From NCBI RefSeq assembly GCF_900890425.1, contig NZ_CAAHFG010000001.1:3596001-3660000 (forward strand): DNA of 64,000 nt, given 5' to 3'. How positions within the stretch are numbered: the first letter of the stretch is position 1; each line of letters begins with the position of its first letter. Both the position numbers and the translations under genes were made by a program. Source of the stretch: Pontiella desulfatans. Its GTDB lineage: Bacteria; Verrucomicrobiota; Kiritimatiellia; Kiritimatiellales; Pontiellaceae. The notes under the pieces are model-generated. The model saw only the letters and a program-made list of their open reading frames with translations. It did not search any database and had not been told where the DNA came from. This document shows positions 39,254 to 50,070 of the stretch, piece after piece.

Positions 39254-40693
39254 TTACTTCCCCACGGTCAGACCGGTATGGGGATGATTCGGAAAATAAT
39301 CGGGATGCCAGGTTTCCGGCTGATCAAGAGGACGCAGCGGACCGCAGACCAACCGTTCGTCGCCCTGCGATTCCATCCACGCTTCCAGTTTCTTTTTCAT
39401 GGTGGCAATCCGTTCGGCATGCTCCGGATTGTTCGCAAGGTTCTTCATTTCCCACGGATCTTCCGTTACATGATAGAGTTCGATTTCGGGACGTTTAAAA
39501 TAGCGGTCGAGCTGCTTCTTCACCTTGGCGTCCGTTTTCATCAGCTCCGCCCATTCGTTCCAGTATTCTGCGCGCCCGGGCTTACGGTAAATGTCGCTCC
39601 AGCAGGTAAAGGCCGCTTCCGGATTCAGGTTGTAGATCAATTTCCATTCGCGATTTCGGATGGAGCGCGATGGATAAATGTTGGTGGCCACGATACCGGT
39701 TTTCCGACGCAGGCAATCCCCCGCATGTGTTGTATAGATTACATCCCGATGGTCTTTCTTTTTTCCCATCAGCACCGGCAGAAAAGACGCGCCATCCAGA
39801 TCGGCCGGCACGGTTCCCCCGGCCGCGTCGATCACCGTGGGCAGGAGATCCACCCAGCTCACCATGGCATCTGACTTGGTGCCGGGTTTGATTTTACCCG
39901 GCCAGGTGGCAATGAACGGTACGCGAATTCCATAATCATATAGGTTCCATTTCCCGAACGACCAGTTGGCTCCGTGATCGCTGGAATGGATGAAGAGTAC
40001 GTCATCTCCCAGCTTCTCGTCTGCAATGGCCCGCAGCTCGCCCAGGAGAATATCCAAATCGACCACCTCCTGCACATAGGCCGCCATGTGCTCCCTGGTC
40101 TGCATCGTATCAGGAAACATCGGCGGAATGCGCACCGAATCCGGAGCCACGGGATTTTCCATCGGCCATGGCGTGTGCGGGTTTGAGGTCCCGACAAAGA
40201 TCGCCAACGGCTGACCGTCCGGTTCAGACGCAATAAAATCCAGCACCCCTTTTTTCATGACTTCGTGGCTGACATCACGGTCAACCAAATCAAAGCCGTA
40301 CGTATCCTTGCCTTTCTGATGCGCCACCTTACCGAAGCTTGCGGTTTTATAGCCTGCTGCTCTGATATCCAGAATGAGCGAATGAAAGCCTTTTTTCGGC
40401 TGCGTGTGGTTCGGTTCGGCCCCATTGCGTGAAGGCATTAGGCCCGTCATGAAGGCAGCTCGGCTCGGTCCGCAGCTCGGCGAGGCCACGTAGCAGTGAT
40501 TTAAAACCATGCCCTCGGCGGCCATCTTTTCCATTTCCGGTGTCGGCACGGCGGGCTCGTCATACAGACTGGAATCCACCATGGAATGGTCGTCGGACAA
40601 GTACACCACGATATGGGGTTTACGCGCTTTTACCGAAACCGATGTAAAAACTAAGACGATAGCCAGGACTAACTTTAAATGGAGGGACTTCAT
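39254..40693 (-). CDS. Secreted sulfatase, heparan-N-sulfatase-like branch
   Basis: 479 residues with a signal peptide (MKSLHLKLVLAIVLVFTSVS, cleaved near VKA). HIVVYLSDDHSMVDSSLYDE; formylglycine motif CGPSR within SPSCGPSRAAFMTGLMPSRN (Cys about 74); GKVAHQKGKDTYGFD replaces the common GKWH. HSSDHGANWSFGKWNLYD is typical of the sulfamidase-like S1 branch. The ATG overlaps the stop of an upstream gene remnant (ATGA at 40690-40693), which suggests it was once the second gene of a coupled pair. Substrate unknown. Confidence 0.9.
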   Translation of the reverse strand: MKSLHLKLVLAIVLVFTSVSVKARKPHIVVYLSDDHSMVDSSLYDEPAVPTPEMEKMAAEGMVLNHCYVASPSCGPSRAAFMTGLMPSRNGAEPNHTQPKKGFHSLILDIRAAGYKTASFGKVAHQKGKDTYGFDLVDRDVSHEVMKKGVLDFIASEPDGQPLAIFVGTSNPHTPWPMENPVAPDSVRIPPMFPDTMQTREHMAAYVQEVVDLDILLGELRAIADEKLGDDVLFIHSSDHGANWSFGKWNLYDYGIRVPFIATWPGKIKPGTKSDAMVSWVDLLPTVIDAAGGTVPADLDGASFLPVLMGKKKDHRDVIYTTHAGDCLRRKTGIVATNIYPSRSIRNREWKLIYNLNPEAAFTCWSDIYRKPGRAEYWNEWAELMKTDAKVKKQLDRYFKRPEIELYHVTEDPWEMKNLANNPEHAERIATMKKKLEAWMESQGDERLVCGPLRPLDQPETWHPDYFPNHPHTGLTVGK

Positions 40694-42048: not shown

Positions 42049-42783
42049 TTATAAGGACGCAGCCCAGCCCGTTCCCTGTTTTAAAAATTTCCGGAAGGCA
42101 TCCTGATTCATTTTTTCAGCATCATGCCCCAGCAGAATCGTAAAACAACGCCCCTGCCCGAACGTGCCGACCAACACCGACGGCTCCCACTGCTCCGTTG
42201 TTTTTGAAAAGCTTTCTGCAAGCACCTTCGCTCCGGAATGAACCTTGGCATTATACCAGAGTTCATCGGTGATCAACTGACGCTCCACACCCTGAGTAAC
42301 CGGATGTTTCGTATCCACAACACGGAGTTCAAATGCATGAGCTTGTTTGTGGCGCGTCTGTCCGGGCTTCCACGTAGCCAGGCCGATGGCGAGGTAATCT
42401 TCCCATTCGTTGAAGGAAGAAGATCCCCCATGCACCACCACATGGCCCCCGCCGTTGCGCACGAATTCAACATAGTTTTTCTTCAGTTCTTCTGACCACG
42501 GCGGTGGATTATTGTTTTTGCCCGCCGTGTTCCAGTTACTGACCAACACCTCATAATCAGCAAGAAATTCAGCGGTCAGCCGTTCGGGGTCCGTTATGAC
42601 ATCCACCTGCATGGCACCGCCCTCTTCCAGCATTTGTTTCAGGAGCGGCGTTGTTTCCTGCCACTGATGATTATTTGCACCGGTCAGTATCACCACCCGC
42701 GCGGGAGCGGCCGACGATAGCCCCGCCGACAGCATCCCCAGAACCGCAGCCAGCCACGTTATCCTATGGAATGACCGTTTCAT
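42049..42783 (-). CDS. Secreted ThuA-like protein
   Basis: 244 residues, signal peptide 1-25 (MKRSFHRITWLAAVLGMLSA). The mature chain is a ThuA/glutamine-amidotransferase-like fold: ARVVILTGANNHQWQETTPL, then DYEVLVSNWN, NYVEFVRNGGGHVVVHGGSS, HPVTQGV and GRCFTILLGHDAEKM. ThuA-like proteins are frequent next to Gfo/Idh/MocA oxidoreductases and sugar epimerases in PVC bacteria; their reaction is not settled, though some participate in oxidation-dependent glycoside cleavage systems. It starts 3 bp after the stop of the split oxidoreductase gene, so the IS insertion is probably polar on it. Confidence 0.85.
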   Translation of the reverse strand: MKRSFHRITWLAAVLGMLSAGLSSAAPARVVILTGANNHQWQETTPLLKQMLEEGGAMQVDVITDPERLTAEFLADYEVLVSNWNTAGKNNNPPPWSEELKKNYVEFVRNGGGHVVVHGGSSSFNEWEDYLAIGLATWKPGQTRHKQAHAFELRVVDTKHPVTQGVERQLITDELWYNAKVHSGAKVLAESFSKTTEQWEPSVLVGTFGQGRCFTILLGHDAEKMNQDAFRKFLKQGTGWAASL

Positions 42784-43387
42784 TTTCTACAGGCTCCACG
42801 GCGCACGCATCGGGCGGTGCATCATTTTTATGGCATCAACACTGCCAACAAGCATTTCTTTCACTGGATCCCAACGCAGTGACTCTCCGGTACGCACCCC
42901 GATATCGCCCATGTGGCAGATAAGGTCGGACTGTATCGCCGATTCAAGTGTACCGACCGGTTGCTCGCGCGTCAGCACGGCGTCGGCAAAGCCCAACATA
43001 TGGCGCTTACTCTGCGACAGCCGGATCTCTCCGGGATCTTTGGCCTTTCTGCGCAACTCTTCCGAGGAAGTCACTAACCCGGATCGGGAAATGGCCACCC
43101 AGCCTTTTTCACCCACAAACTGCGTGCAGTTTGCAAACTTCTGAAGCTGTTCAATTCCGGGCGCGGCCTGCTTTTTGAAGGCCGTTTGGCTATCGGTAAA
43201 CCAAAGACGGGTTCCATCGGCATACGTGGCTTCCATATCCCAGTGCGTTACGGTGTCAAACAGACCTTCCGTCGGCAGTACACCGGTTGTTTTATAGGTT
43301 GCAGGAATGCCCTTTCCGGCGGCATCGGCCCACCACTGCAGCTGATCGATGGGATGAGCCCCCCATCCGGCAATGAAGCCGATGGCA

Positions 43388-43399
43388 TAATCATAAATA
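43388..43399. repeat. Left direct repeat of IS1595-type element
   Basis: TAATCATAAATA directly left of the IS, repeated exactly at 44410-44421 on its right side. Confidence 0.85.
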
Positions 43400-44409
43400 G
43401 GGGTATTCACTTCGATGGACTAGACCCACATGTTGTGGTACACACGTTTCATGGAAGCGTATCCAAAGGATCTGGAAGAATTGGAACTGAACTTTTCAAG
43501 TGAAGAAGCATGTCGCGACTATCTTGCATCATTGCGATGGCCGAACGGCTTCCTTTGCCCGGCCTGTGGCCATGGGGAGTCGTGGCGACTGTCAGACGGC
43601 CTTTTCAAGTGCAAGACGTGCAGTCGTTAAACATCTGTAACCTCGGGTACGATCTTTGAGGGCACCCGCAAACCGCTGGCGTCCTGGTTCAGGGCGATCT
43701 GGTGGGTGACAAGCCAGAAGAACGGAGCCAGCGCCTTGGGACTGATGCGCGTTCTCGGCCTCGGAAGCTACAAGACCGCATGGACGTGGCTGCACAAGCT
43801 CCGCCGGGCGATGGTACGTCCGGGACGGGAAAGACTGGCCGGAACCGTGCAGGTGGATGAAACCTTCATAGGCGGCACAAGGCCCGGGAAACGGGGGCGC
43901 GGAGCCGAAGGCAAGACCCTTGTGCTGATCGTGGCGCAGGAGAATGGTAAGGCCGTCGGTCGCATTCGCCTTGTAAAAATACCCGATGCCTCATCCAAAA
44001 GCCTTGAAGGGGCCATCCGAGAAACGGTTGATCCGGGTACGCAGGTGAAGACGGACGGGTGGAAGGGGTACAATGGTTTGGGAGCTTTGGGCTACGACCA
44101 TAAAGTCGTTCGGAAATCCGAGGATGTTGGCGCGAACCTGCTCCCCCTTTGCCATCGAGTCGCCAGTTTGCTTAAGCGGTGGCTTGGCGGAACACATCAG
44201 GGCGCAGTAAGTCACGAGCATTTGGCATACTATCTCGACGAATACACGTTCCGCTTCAACCGGCGCACTTCCCGCTCGCGGGGAATGCTGCTTTACCGTC
44301 TGCTACAAAATGCAGTCGCTATGGAACCCGTTCGGTTCAAGGAAATATCCCTGTCGGTCAGGGGAAGAAACCACAAGATACAGACTTAGTCCAGCGAAGT
44401 GAATACCCC
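43400..44409 (+). mobile_element. IS1595-type insertion sequence
   Basis: A 1010-bp element. Terminal inverted repeats: GGGGTATTCACTTCG then TGGACTA at the left, and the same with one mismatch read inward from 44409. Flanked by the exact 12-bp direct repeat TAATCATAAATA, and its removal restores the host reading frame precisely. It carries one ISXO2/IS1595-type transposase gene with a premature stop, so this copy is probably not self-mobile now. Confidence 0.9.
43430..44389 (+). pseudogene. IS1595-family transposase with a premature TAA
   Basis: In one frame the product is an N-terminal region with a zinc ribbon (CPACGHGE ... CKTC), then a TAA at 43628-43630, then the catalytic part. TVQVDETFIGGTRPG and VKTDGWKGYNGL carry the DDE-type Asp residues, and HLAYYLDEYTFRFNRRTSRS is the typical C-terminal end of ISXO2-like proteins. 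The family normally has Gln at the stop position (CRQTSVTSGT), so a CAA-to-TAA change explains it. ATG codons at 43430 and 43451 are both possible starts. Confidence 0.88.
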
Positions 44410-44421
44410 TAATCATAAATA
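44410..44421. repeat. Right direct repeat of IS1595-type element
   Basis: TAATCATAAATA, an exact copy of 43388-43399. Confidence 0.85.
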
Positions 44422-45133
44422 TACCAGGAGCCCCGGTTAGACGTGCGCTCTTCAGAAAACGGTGCTTTCGGAGCCGGCCCCAGCCATAGATCATAATCCA
44501 CGTTTTCCGGCACCGGCTGGGCTTCCGTGGAGCCCCCCGACTGACCGGCCGGTGCCCAAGCATAAATATCCTTCACCTCACCGATATGTCCATTCAGCAC
44601 CAGCTCAATACCCATACGAAGGTGCTGCATGGAACGCTGCTGGGCTCCGTACTGGAAAATCCGGTTATGCTTTTCCGTAATGGCCCGTGCGGCCAGGTTC
44701 TGTTCAATACTCAACCCCAGCGGTTTTTCGCAATAGACATCCTTGCCCGCACGCGCGGCCATCAAAGAAATCGGCACATGCCAGTGATCAGGAGTCACCA
44801 CATGTACCGCATCAATATCCTTTCGAGCCAGTACCTCCCGGAAGTCCGCATACTGATCCTGCACGTTCCACTCTTTTGCTCTGGTTTGACGGCGACTGAG
44901 GAACGGATCGCATACCGCCACGATTTCAGCATTATCGCCCTGCAGATATTCCCCGCAGGATCGCGACCGGGAGCCGCATCCGATAATGCCGATTGTCGCC
45001 CGGTTACTCGGCAACGTTGTTCCACCCTGACCCAAAACGGTTGACGGAACAATCGACGGGAACGCAGCGGCTGCACCCAGCACGGCAGACGATTTTAAAA
45101 AATTATGGCGCGTTGTATTCAAGATGACTCTCC

Positions 45134-47138: not shown

Positions 47139-48563
47139 TTACCTTCCTTTACCTGCCGCCGTGCTGTTCGGCGGGAGCGGAGGAAAATAGTCCGGCGGAT
47201 CTTCGATGGGTAGGACACCGCCGACGTGGCCGGGCTGGTATTTATCGCTGACGGTGTCACCGTCGTCGAACGGATCATTCGTACGCTCCAGCCATCCGCG
47301 CAGTTTTTTGTGCAACTCCTGCTGGAGCGCCGCCACATCCGGATTGTCCCGATTTGCCCAGCTGATCAGATTGTTTTTCTGGAAGGGATCGGCTTTATCG
47401 TCATACAGCACCCACGGACCTTCCGGAGTTTCGGCGTAGGTGTGCGTGCGCGTCACCACGCCACGGAACGGCGGAGCGGGAATGCAGTGCACATCGACGG
47501 CAAAATTGATGAATACGGAATCCGGCGCGGCCGTTTCATCGCCCAGGATCAATGCAGAAAGATCATCGCCCTGCATGGCTTCGGGAATTTCAGTTCCGGT
47601 CAGCGTAATCAGGGAAGAGGTGAGCTCGATCAAACTGATCGGCGCATCGGTCACCCGCCCTTCCGGAATGTTTCCGGGCCAGCGCATCAGCAGTGGAATA
47701 CCGACCGACTCGCGCCACGGCTGGCTTTTATAGTACTGCTCATGATTGCCGAGCATGTCGCCATGGTCGGCGGTGAACACCACAATGGTGTCCTCATAGA
47801 GTCCCTGCTCTTTCAAGGTCTGCTCCAAGCGTCCCACCTGATCATCGAGCGCCATGACATGGGCATAATACCCCGCAAGGATTTCTTTCTTCGCCTGCAT
47901 GATTTCGCCGGGCACATAAATACTGTTGGTCTCCATCAATTCCACATCATCTGCCGGATAGCGTTCCAGCAGCTCCGGCGGCATTTCGCGGTAGGGATCA
48001 TGCGGCGTTCCGATGGAGAGCATCAGGAAGAAGGGATCATCCGCCTTGGCCTTTTCTTTCATGTAGTCAATAGCCAGATCGGTCTGGTGAATCGGTTCAT
48101 AACCTTCAATAAAATGTGGTTTCGGCTCTTCGGTATAATAGAACGAACTCATGTAATCATGCGTACAGTTCGCCACCGCCCAGTAATCATTGAAGCCCAG
48201 TCGCCGCCGTCCAGGCGGTGTGAAACCGGTGCGCGGTCCACCATCCAGATGCCACTTGCCGATGTAGCCGCATTTATATCCGCTCTTCGTTAAGGCACCT
48301 GCAAAGGTCGGTCCGTCATTCTTACACTGGATTTCATTATTCACCACGCCATGCGAGAGCGTATGCAAACCGGTCAGCATCGTACCGCGCGACGGTGCGC
48401 ATGACGGCGTATTCGCCACCGCATTGGTAAAGCGCGTGCCCTGCGCTGCCAGGCGGTCAATGTTCGGGGTTTTAACTTTTTCCACGCCCGCGCACCCCAT
48501 CGCCGTCGAGCGCATCTGATCGGTTAAAATATAAAGTATGTTTGGTCTGCTTCTTCGATTCAT
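47139..48563 (-). CDS. S1-family sulfatase without a signal peptide
   Basis: 474 residues. The ATG at 48563 is preferred because GGAGAAC lies 6-12 bp upstream; the in-frame ATG at 48578 has no such site. The chain begins directly with MNRRSRPNILYILTDQMRST, so there is no export signal and a cytosolic location is likely, unlike every other complete sulfatase here. Formylglycine motif CAPSR, Cys about 55; IGKWHLDGG; FTADHGDMLGNHEQYYKS, a motif of the choline-sulfatase/arylsulfatase branch. It may act on sulfated oligo- or monosaccharides after import by the neighbouring GPH symporters. Confidence 0.88.
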   Translation of the reverse strand: MNRRSRPNILYILTDQMRSTAMGCAGVEKVKTPNIDRLAAQGTRFTNAVANTPSCAPSRGTMLTGLHTLSHGVVNNEIQCKNDGPTFAGALTKSGYKCGYIGKWHLDGGPRTGFTPPGRRRLGFNDYWAVANCTHDYMSSFYYTEEPKPHFIEGYEPIHQTDLAIDYMKEKAKADDPFFLMLSIGTPHDPYREMPPELLERYPADDVELMETNSIYVPGEIMQAKKEILAGYYAHVMALDDQVGRLEQTLKEQGLYEDTIVVFTADHGDMLGNHEQYYKSQPWRESVGIPLLMRWPGNIPEGRVTDAPISLIELTSSLITLTGTEIPEAMQGDDLSALILGDETAAPDSVFINFAVDVHCIPAPPFRGVVTRTHTYAETPEGPWVLYDDKADPFQKNNLISWANRDNPDVAALQQELHKKLRGWLERTNDPFDDGDTVSDKYQPGHVGGVLPIEDPPDYFPPLPPNSTAAGKGR

Positions 48564-48590
48564 CAGTTTGTTCTCCATGTAACAATTTTA

Positions 48591-48660: not shown

Positions 48661-50070
48661 TTATTCTGTCTCATGAAACCATTCTGGATAAGGTTTTTTA
48701 ACCTGCTGGTAAACTTTTCCACCCTCTGGATAAAACACGCCGTAGTTCTTTATTTTTCCAGGCGGGCGTTCCGCATCCCACCCCGGATTGGGGCGCATGC
48801 GCTGCGCGCCGGAAGACTGCAAATGGTTCTCCAGCATGTTGACCAGCCGTTCCAACCGCTCGGGATACCTTGCAGCCAGATCGTTCAACTCTCCGGGATC
48901 GTCCTTCAGGTTATACAACGCCTGATCGCCACTCAAAATATGACGAACCAGTTTCCAGTCGCCCACCGCAATTGCGGAGGCGGGATGGTCTCGATGTGGA
49001 AAATGCCAAACTAAAGTTCGTGGATCAGCGTCCTTTCCTTTCAGAAACGGAAGCATGCTCGCGCCATCCACATGGGCTTTCGTCATCGGCTTCACACCGG
49101 CCATCTCCAGAAAGGTCGGAAAATAATCGGTGCTGATTACCGCCGCATCACTAACGGCTTCCGCCGCAACCCGCCCCGGCCAGCGCACCAGTAGCGGAAC
49201 GCGGATTCCACCTTCATACACATCCCCTTTGCCGCCGCGGAACGGCTTGTTGCTGGTCAAATTTTTCAGGCCGCCATTGTCGGAGGTAAAAATCACAACG
49301 GTATTTCTATCGAGCTCCAGTTCGGCCAGTTTATCCATCACGGTTTTGATGGACTGATCAAGATGCGAAACCATGCCGGCATATTTTTTATTCTTCTGGA
49401 ATTTTCCTTTCGGCACATCGTCATACAGCGCCTCCGCTTCCGGCGGGCAGGCCATCGGAACGTGAGGCACATGATGCATCAGGCACACCATGAAAGGATC
49501 GTCTTTATGTTCTTCCAGAAAACGAACCGTCAGGTCGGTCAATTCATCCACGCCCTTATCGCGCCTTTTCTCCTGCCCCGAACAGTCAGCCGCTTCATCA
49601 AAGCCATAGGCCTTGTGTTCGCCTTCGTTGAAAAACGTTTCCTCGTTACCCAGATGCCACTTCCCGAACAGCGCGGTGCGATAACCGGCCTGTTGCAACG
49701 CTTTTCCAAAGGTTGGAAGATTAGATGGCAGTTCCTTGAGATGATTCGGCGGAATCATTTTCGGATTTTCCGCCAGCCGATCCCAGGGCAGCGCATCGGT
49801 TAACTGCACGCGGTGCGGAGTTCGACCCGTCAGGATCGCCGCCCGCGTGGGTGAACAGACATTGCACGCCGCATAGGCGCGCGAGAAGCGCATGCCCTCT
49901 TCCGCGAGTTGGTCCAGATTCGGCGTTCGGTAATAGTCGCTCCCGTAACAACCCAGATCCTTTACCCCGAGATCATCCGCCATGATGAACAGAATATTGG
50001 GGCGCTCCGAAGCTGAAGCAATCCCGGCCGTGGCAAACAATACACATAGCACTAACGTTCTGTTAATCAT
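48661..50070 (-). CDS. Secreted S1-family sulfatase, coupled to a symporter gene
   Basis: 469 residues; signal peptide MINRTLVLCVLFATAGIASA before SERPN. NILFIMADDLGVKDLGCYGS; formylglycine motif CSPTR (Cys about 72); FGKWHLGNE; FTSDNGGLKNL. The start overlaps the stop of the upstream GPH symporter by 8 bp (ATGATTAA, 50063-50070), showing translational coupling. Together with the GH106-like gene upstream, this makes a three-gene unit of glycosidase, importer and sulfatase. Confidence 0.92.
   Translation of the reverse strand: MINRTLVLCVLFATAGIASASERPNILFIMADDLGVKDLGCYGSDYYRTPNLDQLAEEGMRFSRAYAACNVCSPTRAAILTGRTPHRVQLTDALPWDRLAENPKMIPPNHLKELPSNLPTFGKALQQAGYRTALFGKWHLGNEETFFNEGEHKAYGFDEAADCSGQEKRRDKGVDELTDLTVRFLEEHKDDPFMVCLMHHVPHVPMACPPEAEALYDDVPKGKFQKNKKYAGMVSHLDQSIKTVMDKLAELELDRNTVVIFTSDNGGLKNLTSNKPFRGGKGDVYEGGIRVPLLVRWPGRVAAEAVSDAAVISTDYFPTFLEMAGVKPMTKAHVDGASMLPFLKGKDADPRTLVWHFPHRDHPASAIAVGDWKLVRHILSGDQALYNLKDDPGELNDLAARYPERLERLVNMLENHLQSSGAQRMRPNPGWDAERPPGKIKNYGVFYPEGGKVYQQVKKPYPEWFHETE

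Follow-up and report, generated by a model that had tools for sequence, protein, structure and literature searches.

An IS1595-family insertion with an 8-bp duplication in a Gfo/Idh/MocA gene, and the probable spread in trans of its defective lineage

The split oxidoreductase gene and its surroundings

The window, a 64,000-nucleotide stretch of the genome of Pontiella desulfatans, carries on its minus strand a Gfo/Idh/MocA oxidoreductase gene that is split by an insertion sequence. The N-terminal part of the gene (44412-45122, TTG start) encodes 237 aa in place, its frame being terminated by a TAG (44409-44411) that the element's own end creates, and the C-terminal part lies at 42787-43397. 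Matches to the Rossmann NAD-binding domain (PF01408) and the C-terminal domain (PF19051) were found in the N-terminal fragment and a further PF19051 match in the C-terminal one, all above the cut-off. Excision of the insert and one repeat yields a single Gfo/Idh/MocA frame of 437 aa with no internal stop. The clean disruption described in the earlier note is therefore supported both by the domains in the two halves and by the restored frame.

The restored frame was compared with six fetched stretches, which are among the best matches (relatives of the gene were found in 15 of 29 genomes). It could be aligned nearly end to end, over about 435 residues with 60-68% identity, in five of them, of which four belong to relatives and one to a second cluster in this genome; the match to the sixth (L106, 65% over 320 residues) stops at the end of a contig. 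Because the alignments with the oxidoreductases of relatives are nearly complete, the gene had apparently been complete before the element inserted. A search of the genome for paralogues gave seven matches, including the query, at an E value of 1e-40 or below.

As had been noticed before, the oxidoreductase is the middle gene of a trio. It is preceded by a gene for a xylose-isomerase-like TIM barrel protein (epimerase/isomerase-like, PF01261, 45134-45976) and followed by a ThuA-like gene (PF06283, 244 aa, 42049-42783). All three genes lie on the minus strand and are closely packed, being separated by 11 and 3 bases, and the transposase gene of the insert is antisense to the trio. The split gene is probably involved in sugar processing. 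In the stretches from relatives, the epimerase-like and oxidoreductase genes are adjacent in five out of five, and a ThuA gene lies downstream in three (L104, L107, and L108); the contig of L106 ends at this point, and L109 has no ThuA match. With regard to the possible silencing of the third gene raised earlier, scanning of positions 43350-44450 gave no sigma-70-like promoter, against 0.4 in shuffled sequences, and two terminator-like sites on the minus strand against 1.1, which is near chance. Three sulfatase-like frames (39254-40693, 47139-48578, and 48661-50070, recognized by eye) lie around the cluster, suggesting the use of sulfated polysaccharides.

In the second cluster (L105, G000:C1, approximately 40-44 kb), the oxidoreductase frame is complete (442 aa), and the epimerase gene and a divergent AraC gene both lack their N-terminal parts. 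The remains of the AraC gene appear to be fused to the C-terminal portion of the epimerase-like gene (L105:4577-4935, approximately 40.6-40.9 kb of the contig), and the damage to both genes apparently resulted from one deletion. When the genome was searched at E 1e-20, the only epimerase matches were the full-length gene of the window and this remnant. Since the oxidoreductase is split in the window, and the second cluster has a truncated epimerase but a whole oxidoreductase, the two clusters appear to carry damage in complementary genes. The ThuA match of the second cluster falls in the C-terminal portion of a 548-aa frame (L105:6166-7812), which is longer than the 244-aa frame of the window.

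Element ends and target duplication

The insert was previously recognized as IS1595-type, and matches to PF12760 and PF12762 as well as terminal inverted repeats agree with this. Its boundaries had been placed at 43400-44409, from a GGGG-like block to its complement, and the exact 12-mer TAATCATAAATA does flank the insert as reported (43388-43399 and 44410-44421). However, a comparison of copies across the whole genome (8.66 Mb in 6 contigs) shifts the ends. The genome contains 12 copies of the element (hereafter B) with 99-100% identity, together with two copies of a relative with 72% identity (hereafter A). The dinucleotide TA is present directly outside the GGGG...CCCC ends on both sides in all 12 B copies, and beyond it an exact 8-bp direct repeat was found in 11; the remaining copy is one half of a composite that has its own outer 8-bp duplication. 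Hence TA belongs to the element, each of the earlier ends is 2 bp short, the element occupies 43398-44411 (1014 bp, plus strand, with the TA at each end included), and the duplication in the window is the 8-bp ATCATAAA (43390-43397 and 44412-44419). The element has the ends TAGGGGTAT..., and the inverted repeats at the left (43398-43422) and right (44387-44411) ends are imperfect, agreeing at 24 of 25 bp. A scan of the genome with the end pattern gave 14 forward and 14 reverse matches, 26 of the 28 without mismatch, and the reversed control pattern gave none in either orientation. The A copies also end in TA.

The unusually long 12-bp duplication proposed earlier is thus not borne out: the flanks of most of the other copies gave 8 bp, the outcome that the earlier note had itself named as refuting its proposal, and passages of PMC8101967 and PMC12561309 present this length as usual for the family. 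That the element itself makes a 12-bp duplication is now scarcely credible: at the earlier boundaries all 12 bases match in three copies, the window's included (L004, L009, and L011), but the other nine lack such a match. Eight of the nine (L001, L002, L003, L005, L006, L008, L010, and L012) are exact over the central 8 bp, with mismatches confined to positions 1, 2, 11, and 12, the ninth (L007) is the half of the composite, and every one of the 12 copies has the inner TA regardless of the target. The 12-mer arose in the window because this target was flanked by TA before the insertion (TA-N8-TA), so that each 12-mer takes two bases (TA) from the element and two from a target that read this way by chance. 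Such a target is not required; outer TA on both sides occurs in only 3 of the 12 copies. A third IS1595-type element of the same genome (L043-L045) has 8-bp duplications in all three copies, as read by eye.

Within the taxonomic family, matches to the element were detected in 6 of 29 genomes, its own included, and those longer than 41 bases outside its own genome have 69-86% identity. The ends were scanned in 25 of 31 related loci, a collection that may omit the window's own genome (L121, L132, L136, L138, L139, and L140 were left out), with the three best rows considered for each; no row was obtained for L122 or L137. In eight of the 25, the top row was an exact flanking repeat of at least 7 bp (L110, 8; L111, 10; L112, 9; L114, 7; L116, 8; L118, 10; L123, 7; and L127, 8), and the three best rows of each of the other 17 included no repeat of 7 bp or more. 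If the end is placed two bases outside the GGGG-like block, four of the eight (L110, L111, L116, and L127) have exactly 8 bp, and the values are 9 for L112, 10 for L118, and 7 for L114 and L123. Duplication length is less uniform in these distant relatives (7 to 10 bp) than in the window's own genome, and a 12-bp repeat was found in none of the 25 among the three best rows. TA at the ends is not general among relatives, because their outer two bases vary. Another genome has a remnant of a related element (L028:1495-1761, G028:C1) that was shortened by deletion to 267 bp but kept both ends, and no duplication could be seen around it by eye. A literature search for IS1595 with Kiritimatiellota found no report.

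A nonsense codon in most copies and their spread

The transposase frame of the window copy, on the plus strand, is interrupted by an in-frame TAA at codon 67 (43628-43630), a feature absent from the earlier note. The part ahead of the stop (43430-43630, likely start at ATG 43451 by alignment to A) contains the zinc ribbon (PF12760, Zn_ribbon_IS1595, E 2.6e-16). The remainder (43631-44389) is open in the same frame, has GTG 43706 as its first ATG, GTG, or TTG, and contains the DDE domain (PF12762, DDE_Tnp_IS1595, E 6.6e-31, 107.8 bits against a cut-off of 27). The single intact transposase gene typical of the family is therefore lacking in this copy, which is taken as a defective member. TAA is found at codon 67 in 8 of the 12 copies (L001-L008), and the frame is intact in four (L009-L012), which have AAA (Lys) and encode 319 aa without interruption. 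Six of the stop copies are identical, including that of the window, and the two others differ by 1 and 2 bases; apart from the TAA, their frame has no further stop. The stop is derived, since all six aligned outgroups carry Lys or Gln at this codon. Seven stop copies each have an 8-bp duplication of their own, all of them different; the eighth sits in the composite. The stop lineage thus appears to have proliferated once its frame was lost.

Polarization by outgroups places three missense changes, one nonsense change, one change in the left terminal repeat, and no synonymous change on the stop branch. On the intact branch, a single synonymous change (element position 337) is fairly clear, and a missense (193) and a synonymous (603) change are less so; a synonymous difference at 627 lacks polarity, and position 513 varies synonymously within the intact group. 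Later changes within the stop group are two synonymous and one missense. These polarized changes are too few to establish relaxed selection and are suggestive at most.

Two tandem pairs, each consisting of an A copy and a stop copy 8 bp apart, were also identified (L013 and L014 with L005 and L007). At G000:C1, approximately 2.467 Mb, TTTTAAAA is present before, between, and after the two members. At G000:C3, approximately 1.273 Mb, the same pair has TTTTAAAA between the members and TAAAGATA on both outer sides, i.e., one 8-bp duplication for the unit, beyond the left end of A and the right end of B. The simplest account would be that the pair moved as one unit via the left end of A and the right end of the stop copy. 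Because the unit A-TTTTAAAA-B has a single duplication outside these two ends, it is suggested that one transposase may act on the ends of A and B alike. The tandem itself may first have arisen by a second insertion into the same 8-mer or by way of a circle. No difference separates the two A copies, and their transposase frame in the pair is intact (312 aa, 75% identity to the intact B protein). Possible helpers in the genome are thus four intact B copies (319-aa frame) and two A copies (312 aa).

These data show that a 1014-bp element inserted itself into the central gene of a sugar-metabolism-like cluster with the 8-bp duplication usual for the family, and that this copy belongs to a lineage with a nonsense codon in the zinc ribbon. 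We propose that the lineage rose to 8 of 12 copies after that mutation and was most likely mobilized in trans, by the transposase of its intact sisters or of the 72%-identical A. We assign a probability of roughly 0.78 to this reading, i.e., a defective IS1595 lineage in an ordinary 8-bp insertion, spread by transposase acting in trans, as judged from copy counts. Spread of defective copies is less expected because bacterial transposases often favour action in cis; passages of PMC11677980 describe this for IS5 of E. coli, whose mutant copies are reported to be immobile and whose transposase acts mainly in cis.

It is also conceivable, though unlikely, that the stop copies are self-sufficient, by means of either a 227-aa protein without the ribbon that starts at the internal GTG (43706) or a two-part transposase. 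The frame downstream of the TAA is open and retains both the DDE domain and what looks by eye like an HTH, and a passage of PMC8101967 gives an N-terminal zinc ribbon for all IS1595 groups except IS1016, so that one group of the family does without the zinc finger. If the TAA were no lesion, an active transposase of this kind would explain why stop copies outnumber intact ones, and the zinc ribbon would be dispensable or regulatory in this branch of the family. However, GTG 43706 has no good ribosome-binding site (AGGG lies 11 nt ahead, by eye), and codon 67 is sense in all 28 related loci that display the stretch (out of 31; L121, L139, and L140 are without it). L134 has a stop two codons earlier, and its frame has seven stops overall. 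Gene conversion, by which copies spread intact and the stop was later copied between sites, is quite improbable: it would also produce near-identical copies, but about five derived differences would have to be installed at eight scattered sites on three contigs, leaving four copies untouched. Readthrough of the TAA to give full-length transposase from the stop copies is less probable still. Although the frame runs on without other stops, no special context is seen around the TAA by eye, the codon is sense in the four sister copies and in A, and TAA is usually efficient as a stop.

Comparison with known systems

Taken together, both the IS1595-family insertion and its duplication are of the ordinary kind, and what mild interest there is lies in the composite and in the prevalence of defective copies. 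The atypical duplication was a false lead that is now removed, and the true ends of the element have been located. What is left is a compact natural example of copies that are full length but defective and that outnumber the intact ones, with likely helpers alongside. Among non-autonomous insertion sequences and MITEs, defective copies are probably moved by transposase from elsewhere, and the stop copies would resemble them in this respect; they differ in being full length and in having a nonsense codon instead of an internal deletion.

The IS1595 family, for which the reported reference is Siguier et al. 2009, provides the closest comparison. The window element shares with it the combination of zinc ribbon and DDE_Tnp_IS1595 domain, the terminal inverted repeats, and the 8-bp A/T-rich duplications given in passages of PMC8101967 and PMC12561309, but it departs from the family in the nonsense codon that interrupts its transposase frame, a defect common to 8 of the 12 copies in the genome. 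The pseudo-compound transposon Tn7560, as passages of PMC12561309 present it, also involves an IS1595-family element (ISApl4) with 8-bp repeats that is part of a larger unit. In Tn7560, two copies of one insertion sequence bound a unit with resistance genes, whereas the A-B composite consists of two different elements in tandem, 8 bp apart, with one outer duplication and without cargo. Finally, if the stop lineage was moved in trans, its situation would be the opposite of that described for IS5 in the same passages of PMC11677980, and the present case allows direct testing of how far an IS1595 transposase acts in trans.
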